A stretch of 41,720 nucleotides of DNA from a virus, in IMG/VR virus record IMGVR_UViG_3300001686_000001, positions 1 through 41,720 of that record, one strand, 5' to 3'. Below the pieces are notes generated by a model. It was not told where the DNA came from. It worked only from the letters and a program-made list of their open reading frames with translations, and did not search any database. Position 1 is the first letter of the stretch. Each line of letters starts with the position of its first letter. Position numbers and translations under genes: made by a program. This document shows positions 5,803-39,013 of this stretch, one piece after another.

Positions 5803-6414
5803 TTAAGGGCACCAAGCGGGGTAAGCATCGGTGTAGTTCCTGACCGCCGAGAGGTACCCGACCTTCATCTCACCAATCGCGCGCTGGAAATCGTCCTCGA
5901 AATCCCTCCAGGTGGGATCGTTCTGGAGCCGAAGTCCTTCCGCCGACGCGCCTTGAACCAGGGCGAAATGAAACTCGGCGGGGAACAACGGAACGTCTCC
6001 GTCCGCGGCGAGCGGAGTCCAGGAGCGTTCTCCGTACACCGTGATACTTCTCGCACTGGACGCGGGAGCGTCGAATACCAGGTTGCCTCCGATGACGCTG
6101 TACTCCACAGGAGATCGACTGGAGGTGCTTGTCCAGTTGTAAAAGTCCTCGGGCCTGAGGGCCTCGATATCGATGGGGTAACTTCCGTAACTGTTGTCCC
6201 AGATCCCGTAAACGCGCTGAAAACCAAGGGACGACAGACTGATGGTGTTCGAGGAGAGTGGGAGAGTTGTGGTGCTCACCCCGGTCTTGAACGTCCATCC
6301 CTCCTGCGCCCAGACACGCCCGTACCTGTAGTTGATCCAGTTCTTCACGTCGGAACGCTGTGCTTCCTTGAACCTGTCGTTCATCGCCGCGTTCTGGATT
6401 TCCAAGAAAGTCAC
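5803..6414 (-). CDS. Head-tail adaptor protein (P22 gp4-like), 203 aa
   Basis: The start is GTG, set by TAGGCT-N6-GTG. The early segment FLEIQNAAMNDRF plus W-I-N-Y-R-Y-x-R-V-W and the later block RDFEDDFQRAIGEM match what I know of podoviral head-to-tail adaptor proteins that bind under the portal. It is transcribed divergently from 6438 and lies just upstream of the beta-propeller gene, the usual partner. Confidence 0.7.
   Translation of the reverse strand: MTFLEIQNAAMNDRFKEAQRSDVKNWINYRYGRVWAQEGWTFKTGVSTTTLPLSSNTISLSSLGFQRVYGIWDNSYGSYPIDIEALRPEDFYNWTSTSSRSPVEYSVIGGNLVFDAPASSARSITVYGERSWTPLAADGDVPLFPAEFHFALVQGASAEGLRLQNDPTWRDFEDDFQRAIGEMKVGYLSAVRNYTDAYPAWCP
6257..6266 (+). repeat. Dispersed 10-mer AGTGGGAGAG, copy in adaptor gene
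   Basis: Inside the minus-strand adaptor gene, so the transcript carries CTCTCCCACT; it encodes part of TLPLSS. Confidence 0.8.
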
Positions 6415-6420
6415 ATCTAT

Positions 6421-6426
6421 AGCCTA
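6421..6426 (-). promoter_or_regulatory. Leaderless promoter -10 (TAGGCT) for the adaptor gene
   Basis: TAGGCT on the minus strand is followed by six bases and the GTG at 6414. It overlaps the plus-strand -10 at 6425-6430 by two bases, so the two divergent promoters probably compete. Confidence 0.6.
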
Positions 6427-6430
6427 GAAT
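6425..6430 (+). promoter_or_regulatory. Leaderless promoter -10 (TAGAAT) for the gene at 6438
   Basis: TAGAAT is followed by seven bases and the ATG at 6438. It shares the bases TA with the opposing -10 of the adaptor gene. Confidence 0.6.
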
Positions 6431-6437
6431 TTGAGGG

Positions 6438-8237
6438 ATGACTTCGATCCAGCGTAGGAAGACTCTCAAGCCGCTCAAGCCCCAGCCGCTACCGGGCCAG
6501 GGGTACATGTACTCCAGCGATCCGGCGAGCGCCGCCAGAAGGGCCGCGTACTTCCCCCAGGCCGTCACTCCGATCCCGAGCACCAACAAGTCTCCGCAGG
6601 GGTACTTTTATTCGGGCTCACCGGCCTCGATGGCGCGCAGGGCAGTGGATTACCGGGCGATCCCCCACGCCTCTCCCACTCATCTGCCTGTTGCTCGTAA
6701 CCCCCTCGGTTCTGCTCCGATGGCTCCTGTGGCGTCCACAGATCCTTACGCGGGGGTTCCCACCCAGCACTTCGTAGACCCCACGGCCATCTGGAAGCAG
6801 GCGCAGGGTTTGGTTGGAGGGATGATCAACCCGCTAATGCAGGCTCTGATGAATCGTCAGCAGTCTACGGAACAGAACCTGAACACTCAAGGCCAGGCGC
6901 ACTCCGATGCGCTTGCAGCGGCTCTCACCCAGTCCGCCCAGCCCGTAGCACAGGCTTACCAGACCGCTACTCAGCAGGCCGCAGCCACGGCAGACGCCGC
7001 AAGCAACAGCTTCCAAGCCCAGGGCGGAACCGCCACCAGAGATCTCGCCGCGAAGCTCGCCCAGATCGGAGGAGTTGTTCCCGGAGCCGATCAGTTGGCA
7101 CAGACCTACAAGGGAGCCGATCAGGCGGGGTACACCCGCAATAGTCTCGATGTCCAGGGTCTTATCAACCAGGGAGCGAACGCCAACGCCTATCTGGCGA
7201 AGCGGCCGGGAATCGCGCGTCTCGCGGCGAACCAGGATCTCCAGTCCGCGCTTGCGCAGGCGCGCCAGGGGTTCATGGAGGCGGGGACGCAACTCACCTC
7301 GGACGCCACCGACAAGGCGGGAGAAGCGTTCAACGCGATCTCAGACCAGCGTCAGAAGGCCCTGGATTCCCAGTTCGACCGGGAAACCAACGTGTTCAAC
7401 CTCAAGCGCCAAGACGAGGCCACCAAGGCCGCTTCGGCGGTAGACGCCAGGGACTTCGCTCTCAAGAGAGACGCACTCCAGGCTCAGACCAACCAGGGCA
7501 TCAGGGATTACAGATTCAAAGTAGCGCAGGCCAACGTACAGGCGCTTCAGCACGACCAGGATCAGTACCAGAAGCGGATCCTCACCCTCCAGGCGCTCAA
7601 GACCGCGTCCAATGACAAAGCCGCGCAGCGCGCGTACGACCTTCAGATCAACCAGATGAAGGTTGCCGCTACAGCGAACCAGAAAGCTCTCGACAGGGCT
7701 TCGCGCGAAGCGATGTTGTCCAGCACTTTGAACGTCAGGACGGGGATCGCCAACGCCGGTAACGAGACTCGCGCTGGGATCGCCGCTGCCGGTCAGGCGG
7801 GACAGAACACACGTACTCAAGCCCAGATCGACGCAGCGAACGCCCGTCAGGCTGCGAGGATCAAGGCTCAACAGGCCAAGGACGCCAAAGCGGCCAAGGA
7901 CAACAAGACCGGCGCTGGGAAGGATTCCTGGCAGACCCCGGGTAGTTCCAAGCGGAACAGGGTGATCGGGTCTGTGGCTGGGAACATTCTCGTTCAGGGC
8001 AAAGGAGGTACCAGGACGATCCGTGGAACCTTGACCGATCCGAACAACGTCAAAAACGTGGATCAGGCGATCTGGAACAAGGTGAACGCCAGTATCCGCG
8101 CCCAGGGGATCAATCCCGAGACTCCGGCCGGAAAGGAACTTCGGAAGGAGATCTACCACACCTATATCGAGGGGGCGAGAGCGCCTGACGGCAGTTACTA
8201 TCACATTCCTGCCAACTGGGCTATCGCGAAGCCGTAG
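6438..8237 (+). CDS. Long coiled-coil internal/ejection-type virion protein, 599 aa
   Basis: Two related segments near the N-terminus (GYMYSSDPASAARRAA and GYFYSGSPASMARRAV, about residues 23-38 and 54-70) form an internal repeat. From about residue 115 to 490 the chain is almost all Gln/Ala/Lys/Asp helix with heptads. A C-terminal globular part contains an ARAPDGSYYHIP segment. It overlaps the next gene by one base. An ejection or inner-core role is inferred by analogy with podovirus internal proteins. Confidence 0.75.
   Translation: MTSIQRRKTLKPLKPQPLPGQGYMYSSDPASAARRAAYFPQAVTPIPSTNKSPQGYFYSGSPASMARRAVDYRAIPHASPTHLPVARNPLGSAPMAPVASTDPYAGVPTQHFVDPTAIWKQAQGLVGGMINPLMQALMNRQQSTEQNLNTQGQAHSDALAAALTQSAQPVAQAYQTATQQAAATADAASNSFQAQGGTATRDLAAKLAQIGGVVPGADQLAQTYKGADQAGYTRNSLDVQGLINQGANANAYLAKRPGIARLAANQDLQSALAQARQGFMEAGTQLTSDATDKAGEAFNAISDQRQKALDSQFDRETNVFNLKRQDEATKAASAVDARDFALKRDALQAQTNQGIRDYRFKVAQANVQALQHDQDQYQKRILTLQALKTASNDKAAQRAYDLQINQMKVAATANQKALDRASREAMLSSTLNVRTGIANAGNETRAGIAAAGQAGQNTRTQAQIDAANARQAARIKAQQAKDAKAAKDNKTGAGKDSWQTPGSSKRNRVIGSVAGNILVQGKGGTRTIRGTLTDPNNVKNVDQAIWNKVNASIRAQGINPETPAGKELRKEIYHTYIEGARAPDGSYYHIPANWAIAKP
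6671..6680 (-). repeat. Dispersed 10-mer, copy in the 6438 coiled-coil gene
   Basis: Sense strand CTCTCCCACT, followed by CAT; encodes SPTHL. Confidence 0.8.
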
Positions 8238-38445: not shown

Positions 38446-38489
38446 TGAGTGACGCTCGCGTCAGTCCACTAGCGGGGTTCGCTAGATGA
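38445..38489 (+). CDS. Possible linker ORF, 14 aa
   Basis: ATG overlaps the capsid stop (TAATG) and its TGA overlaps the next ATG, so ribosomes could pass from capsid to the following microprotein. The peptide (MSDARVSPLAGFAR) has no feature. Confidence 0.35.
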   Translation: MSDARVSPLAGFAR

Positions 38490-38563
38490 GCCTGCTCTGG
38501 ATCATCGTGATTGTGATCTTGGTACTCGCGCTGGTTGGGTTCTTCGGCCGCGGCTACTACTAG
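38486..38563 (+). CDS. Membrane microprotein, 25 aa
   Basis: One hydrophobic helix (LLWIIVIVILVLALVGFF) with a GRGYY end, similar in style to DUF3309-type small membrane proteins. Coupled start and stop. Role unknown. Confidence 0.5.
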   Translation: MSLLWIIVIVILVLALVGFFGRGYY

Positions 38564-38570
38564 GATTCGT

Positions 38571-38618
38571 ATGCTTGATCTGATGTTGGAGCAGCGGAAG
38601 CGAGGGAACCTCGCGTGA
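38571..38618 (+). CDS. Leader peptide repeating the N-terminus of the next gene, 15 aa
   Basis: MLDLMLEQRKRG resembles MIDLMLEGRIQR of the following protein. Shared residues use different codons at several positions (GAT/GAC, CTG/CTC, TTG/CTT, CGG/CGT). Start-to-start distance is 44 nt and the stop overlaps the next start (GTGA), as at the terminase. Confidence 0.5.
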   Translation: MLDLMLEQRKRGNLA

Positions 38619-39013
38619 TCGACCTCATGCTTGAGGGTCGTATCCAGCGCGCGCTGACCGAGATGGATCACAACCTGTTCCTCGACAAGGCCTGGAGTCC
38701 CTTCGGGTACGTGTACTTCGTGATCAAGAGCCACATGGGGGACGGCATCGAGCCGTTGACGGTCGTGGAATGGCGCAAGGGCAACCACCCTCTCCCACTC
38801 TCCTTCGACATCGTCAACCAAGTGCGCTATCAGGAAGGGAACATCCAGGAGGCGATCAAGGAAGCGACCGTGAACAACGCTGTCCTGAAAGAGAAGAAGC
38901 GCCAGGAAGTCCAGAAAGACCTGGAGAACATCGTCTCAGACCATCAGTTCCACAACCATGGGTTCAAGGTCGGAGACGCTACTCCACGCCGAACTAAGCG
39001 CGCGTCCTCGTAG
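38615..39013 (+). CDS. Hypothetical head/neck-region protein, 132 aa
   Basis: GTG 38615. N-terminal amphipathic helix, a middle with aromatic beta (FGYVYFVIKSHMG), a helical basic part (NAVLKEKKRQEVQKDLENI) and a His-rich end. Position after capsid suggests a structural or assembly role. A dispersed 10-mer lies at 38790. Confidence 0.65.
   Translation: MIDLMLEGRIQRALTEMDHNLFLDKAWSPFGYVYFVIKSHMGDGIEPLTVVEWRKGNHPLPLSFDIVNQVRYQEGNIQEAIKEATVNNAVLKEKKRQEVQKDLENIVSDHQFHNHGFKVGDATPRRTKRASS
38790..38799 (-). repeat. Dispersed 10-mer, copy in the 38615 gene
   Basis: Sense strand CTCTCCCACT; encodes PLPLSF, as in the HD and ATPase genes. Confidence 0.8.

Follow-up and report, generated by a model that had tools for sequence, protein, structure and literature searches.

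Among described systems, the stoperators of cluster A phages (L5, Bxb1 and their relatives) are the closest precedent for a short word repeated across a phage genome: it is established that these sites occur genome-wide and that their motifs drift with the repressor (PMC6550527, PMC9283540). Cluster A phages are temperate, with an integrase or parABS, and encode a known repressor with two DNA-binding domains; their stoperators are concentrated in short intergenic gaps and keep a single orientation relative to transcription, and reversal abolishes their function. A second precedent is Chi, which phages that lack recombinases enrich to about 0.2 sites per kb (PMC3784561). A third is provided by DNA translocases: KOPS (GGGNAGGG) and SRS (GAGAAGGG) guide FtsK and SpoIIIE, and one study describes a phage whose terminase small subunit carries a fused FtsK gamma domain (PMC8190038).

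We analysed the genome of a tailed phage, a virus record of 41,720 bases (the window, by which we mean this whole stretch of DNA) to which nothing in the phage collection is closely similar. Its two ends carry the same 35 bp as a direct repeat (1-35 and 41686-41720), which suggests a circularly permuted or complete assembly, and thus that the record is probably close to complete. The first-pass annotation of this DNA had listed 13 dispersed copies of the 10-mer AGTGGGAGAG, and an exact search of the window recovered all 13 at the coordinates listed, 7 on the + strand and 6 on the - strand. Since a G directly precedes each copy on its 5' side, the repeat unit is the 11-mer GAGTGGGAGAG; the G that had been described as often shared is therefore present in 13 of 13 copies, whereas the GTTGG that was said to follow amounts merely to a G/T-rich tendency. 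With its 13 copies, GAGTGGGAGAG is the commonest 11-mer of the window, the runner-up being an overlapping word with 9. Only 0.26 copies are expected under an order-5 Markov model, and synonymous-codon shuffles likewise give 0.26 copies, with a maximum of 3 in 200 runs. In contrast to this far excess of the exact word, one-mismatch versions of the 10-mer occur at chance level (3 matches against about 4.5 expected). Position 4 proved to be free, so that the motif becomes GAGNGGGAGAG and gains a 14th copy, GAGAGGGAGAG at 27748 (-); the enrichment first reported was understated. In shuffles that keep the encoded proteins fixed, permute synonymous codons and shuffle intergenic bases, GAGNGGGAGAG appears 0.53 times on average and at most 3 times in 1000 shuffles, compared with the 14 copies observed, and the commonest gapped 10-mer of the same shape never exceeded 7 copies in 1000 such shuffles.

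The word is also strict. Ten motif positions are invariant in the 31 tabulated copies from the window and its closest relatives (clade A), but this invariance is built into the search pattern, and we base the claim of strictness on the rarity of single-substitution variants instead. A purine at position -2 is common to all 31 copies. We relied on exact enumeration, as an unconstrained EM motif search in clade A wandered off into purine tracts of low complexity. The motif is non-palindromic. Cluster A phages repeat an asymmetric word of about 13 bp many times across the genome, and the window does likewise (14 copies, with the purine at -2). Other viral contigs that contain the word plus GTTGG have 1 to 3 copies each, and none is comparably enriched. 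From these results, we conclude that GAGNGGGAGAG is almost certainly a selected DNA recognition word.

Most copies are not in intergenic gaps: called genes hold 10 of the 14. The copy at 6256..6266 (+) lies inside the adaptor gene 5803-6414(-) and encodes TLPLS, and that at 6671..6681 (-) lies inside gene 6438-8237(+), where it encodes SPT. The copy at 14057..14067 (+) is in the HD phosphatase gene 13874-14434(-), encoding PLPLSV. Two copies fall in the DnaB-like helicase gene, one near its 3' end and 92 nt upstream of a helix-turn-helix (HTH) gene (17020..17030, +), the other in the sense orientation and encoding VSGRA (17589..17599, -). Further coding copies are found near the 3' end of the portal-like gene 21355-23430(-) (21438..21448, +), in gene 30304-30777(+) (30376..30386, -) and near the 3' end of gene 35028-35429(+) (35391..35401, -), the latter two encoding LSHS, and in gene 38615-39013(+), where the copy at 38790..38800 (-) encodes PLPLS. 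The copy at 11899..11909 (+) falls within a small called ORF, 11726-11941(-), with gene 11938-12573(-) on one side and the tail module on the other; the one at 21316..21326 (+) abuts the ATG of gene 20734-21315(-); and the 14th copy (27748..27758, -), absent from the earlier list, lies upstream of the terminase gene. Finally, a divergent region contains two copies that face each other, at 29605..29615 (+), which also falls within an uncalled + ORF (29524-29748), and at 29685..29695 (-). The copy at 21316-21326 sits where the ribosome-binding site of gene 20734-21315 would be expected. As a reading of the window word, a ribosome-binding-site repeat was rejected: the copies are not placed before starts.

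A dispersed word that sits largely in genes might be no more than a by-product of coding, arising from LPLS, SPT and LSHS peptides together with ordinary codon bias. Four copies do encode LPLS. However, protein-preserving shuffles yield only 0.5 copies, the coding copies occupy three reading frames, as had been claimed, and some copies are non-coding. The window proteins offer 16 synonymous openings for the exact word, and 10 of these are used, compared with 0.055 expected. Relatives provide the most direct comparison: at the motif site of gene 38615-39013, all aligned relatives encode PLPLS, which is spelled CTC-CCN-CTC-TC, forming the motif, in the window, G004 and G019, but with other codons in G012, G009 and G006. 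Because the same peptide carries the motif codons only in the window's clade, selection acts at the nucleic-acid level, as the first-pass annotation had argued, and the word is maintained mostly by synonymous codon choice. The shuffles and the PLPLS codon comparison refute the coding by-product, to which we give practically no credence. The earlier suggestion of a sequence-specific reader is supported as well.

Searching viral contigs for terminase and capsid proteins yielded these relatives, which share 60-75% protein identity with the window. We treat G004 and G055, and likewise G019 and G029, as what are probably two parts of one virus kind, because their gene contents are complementary. 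Loss of the sites in close relatives would have spoken against the motif; instead it persists, with 4 copies in G004, 3 in G055, 5 in G019 and 8 in G029, the last two counts overlapping in one region present on both. Some copies have been kept in place: in the HD phosphatase gene (exactly in G029, at 7705, and two codons away in G055, at 2670), at the 3' end of the helicase gene (G004, within 6 nt of the window site 17020..17030), in gene 6438-8237 (G019 at 427, G029 at 233) and in gene 38615-39013 (G004 at 3079, G019 at 10716). The remaining copies are not common to the relatives, which indicates turnover as well as persistence.

Outside this clade the word itself changes. The sister clade has CAGNGGGACAG, and one genome nested within it, G006, has CAGNGGGGCAG (5 copies); G009, G010-G012 and G013 instead have [C/A]AGNGGGACAG together with a shorter word, GAGGGACAG. 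Hardly any word turns up outside its own clade, the exception being one clade-A word in G009. Measured against the means of protein-preserving shuffles, the clade-specific words are in excess in G004 (4 observed, 0.15 expected), G019 (5, 0.08), G029 (8, 0.21), G012 (6, 0.09), G013 (6, 0.24) and G006 (5, 0.18); the counts in G006, G004 and G009 would be unexceptional as the best of all words and are valid solely in the targeted sense. In trees of the capsid, hub, adaptor, exonuclease and HTH proteins, the window, G004 and G019 stand apart from G013, G012 and G006 (and from G009 where present), and G006 is mostly sister to G012; the helicase, the HD phosphatase, TerS and gene 38615 conflict with this pattern. 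Word drift is thus clade-specific and follows phage phylogeny, and, given the position of G006 in these trees, the third word was probably derived within the second-word group. Two SAG triplets, spaced 8 bp apart, occur in the word; both are GAG in clade A and CAG in the sister clade, so that positions 1 and 9 change jointly (G..G to C..C). This joint change would fit reading by repeated identical modules, but as evidence it is modest, because coincidence is not a very unlikely source of such a match.

Several other repeats and features were seen along the way. In G006 (L043-L045), GAGGCTCTTA occurs 5 times, every time on the + strand. The distant relative G023 (L076-L078) has a purine-rich AAAGGGAGGGA repeat just before genes, resembling an extended ribosome-binding site. 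Dispersed enriched words are also found in Microbacterium phage Shocker (L149; TTAGGGTAGC, 7 copies, and CTCCGACAGGG, 8 copies) and in 20.7 kb around a related terminase on a Nitrososphaerota MAG contig (L083; GTACAACCGAA, 8 copies, and GGGATAATTC, 7 copies). In G013, 22 tRNA genes form a cluster (L054, 10832-12690; 23 in the locus), and the window has none.

The first-pass annotation had further described the copies as antisense to transcription. By count this stands: 12 of the 14 window copies are antisense (p = 0.013) if the pair at 29605 and 29685 is assigned to the nearest divergent genes, although the uncalled ORF 29524-29748 would turn one of that pair sense. Most transcripts would then carry CUCUCCCNCUC, and an mRNA site bound by a protein or by an antisense RNA could account for the repeat. 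Polarity does not, however, appear to be an intrinsic property of the word. The proteins of clade A allow more antisense than sense placements, which explains the excess: of 33 antisense openings 18 are used, and of 15 sense openings 4 (Fisher p = 0.12). In addition, G019 and G029 carry sense copies both within genes and between co-directional genes, so that orientation in the clade is mixed, and the window matches no Rfam family. The opening counts and the sense copies in relatives disfavour an RNA-level site and a strictly oriented roadblock alike, and we rejected the RNA-level reading and a polarity tied to transcription; for an RNA-level site, as proposed at first, we see very little chance. 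A double-stranded DNA site, readable in either orientation, is favoured by these patterns.

A G-rich, non-palindromic, strict word on both strands, spread across coding DNA by codon choice, is also what would be expected of a Chi-like signal, and this is the main rival to the reading that we prefer. Under it, a host recombination helicase-nuclease of the RecBCD, AddAB or AdnAB type would read the word, which would protect phage DNA ends or recruit recombination, and hosts of different clades would read different words. The density in the window is 0.34 per kb, against about 0.2 per kb for Chi-enriched phages, and both signals are enriched across the phage genome (PMC3784561), but the enrichment differs, being about 27-fold in the window and about 3-fold for Chi, under different null models. 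Against a Chi-like role, one phage family contains three different words, which differ among close relatives, and all three word types occur in records of a single metagenome (3300015371). Known Chi words have 5-8 bases, fewer than the ten specified here. Nor was the word enriched in any of 398 sampled Bacillota genomes, though weak hints suggest that the host may be actinobacterial; an MCP scan of genome contigs found no host, and a TerL scan found distant loci only. We regard a Chi-like role as rather unlikely.

The word can also be parsed into three 4-bp units, GAGN/GGGA/GAG(g), and in being purine-rich, non-palindromic and internally repeated, with a free position as in KOPS, it resembles the polar guides of DNA translocases. 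It might thus be a KOPS-like site recognised by host FtsK, or the place where the phage terminase small subunit loads, an idea for which the terminase-FtsK gamma fusion offers a precedent (PMC8190038). Such guides are polar, but the copies along G029 are interleaved without consistent polarity (4+/4-), and those of the window are partly polar at most. A phage-encoded FtsK gamma domain as reader was ruled out by the absence of PF09397 from the window and from 11 related or comparison records. A translocase guide therefore seems improbable.

Where, then, might the reader be encoded? Probably in the phage itself, and the best candidate, put forward tentatively, is a 105-aa XRE/Cro-type HTH protein (16611..16928, -), which is kept in all relatives that hold the region and neighbours the DnaB-like helicase domain protein (16954..17739, -). 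It gives a Cro/LacI-type HTH match below the Pfam cut-off, and its predicted structure has an XRE-like core (mean pLDDT 76) with a poorly modelled middle part; Foldseek returned the HTH domains of SinR, HipB, DdrO and P22 c2, none with a significant E-value. The motif copy at 17020..17030, whose place is kept in G004, is the one that lies 92 nt upstream of this gene. Its recognition-helix segment differs by clade, being of the TxTRII.GE type or of the [QM][KR][IM]L[ED]D type (seven sequences, confounded with phylogeny). Although the HTH protein of the sister-clade genome G013 is closer to that of the window overall (64%) than is that of clade-A G029 (58%), its recognition segment is less similar. 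Against this candidate, XRE proteins usually bind palindromes as dimers, and GAGNGGGAGAG is non-palindromic.

The window genes scanned also encode packaging, capsid and portal-like proteins, a PD-(D/E)XK (RecB-type) exonuclease (19250..19996, -), an endonuclease VII and two adenine methyltransferase-like proteins. A Dam-like stretch lies at 36091-36852, and 18046-18513 encodes a phage N6-adenine methyltransferase. GATC is very frequent in the window, occurring 411 times, against 154 expected from base composition and 381 from a trinucleotide Markov model. The terminase large subunit gene, 25292-27556(-), contains an apparent in-frame intein of about 285 aa after HGH (Hint domain at residue 429, ending VHN|S), and the G004 relative lacks it.

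Taken together, we propose, with a probability of roughly 0.4, that GAGNGGGAGAG is a double-stranded DNA site for a clade-specific, probably phage-encoded binding protein, an unoriented, stoperator-like site for which the 16611-16928 protein is a candidate reader. The excess over protein-preserving shuffles in the window, G004, G019, G029, G012 and G013 supports this proposal. A predicted sequence-specific factor would recognise this strict, non-palindromic site, held by nucleic-acid selection at about 7 to 14 copies per genome in the clade, and reader and word would change together as the phages diverge (GAGNGGGAGAG, CAGNGGGACAG, CAGNGGGGCAG). In our reading, the candidate HTH protein would bind its own genome at many sites and control transcription across modules, with the sites serving as operators and as roadblocks, much as stoperators do in cluster A phages but without fixed orientation. 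Transcriptional silencing or a roadblock may be the main role, a view we hold tentatively; the intragenic position of most copies speaks against the proposal.

Of the analogues first offered, the stoperators of cluster A remain the nearest in function. Like them, the word is non-palindromic, of similar length, present in more than a dozen copies genome-wide and subject to drift along phage phylogeny (three clade-specific words here) (PMC6550527, PMC9283540). Unlike them, it lies in called genes in 10 of 14 cases and in mixed orientation in relatives. Among the large genes scanned, none encodes an integrase, ParA or another lysogeny function. The candidate reader shows one XRE-type HTH, beside a poorly modelled middle part. 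Because orientation, location and, judging by the genes scanned, lifestyle depart from the analogue, we do not class this as a stoperator system.

A bolder idea, which we consider doubtful, is that every lineage labels its DNA with a strict word of 11 bp that is private to it and is read in either orientation, and that word and phage-encoded reader diversify together. If so, the phage would distinguish its own DNA from that of the host and of rival phages, whether to silence it, to protect it from nucleases or to package it. Few dispersed, strictly conserved phage words have a known reader (stoperators, Chi). In this uncultivated phage family, three related words can be compared in a known phylogenetic order, and the same site and the same peptide can be seen with and without the motif across relatives. 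The family may thus offer a natural experiment in which a protein and all of its genomic sites shift specificity together, with a concrete candidate for that protein.
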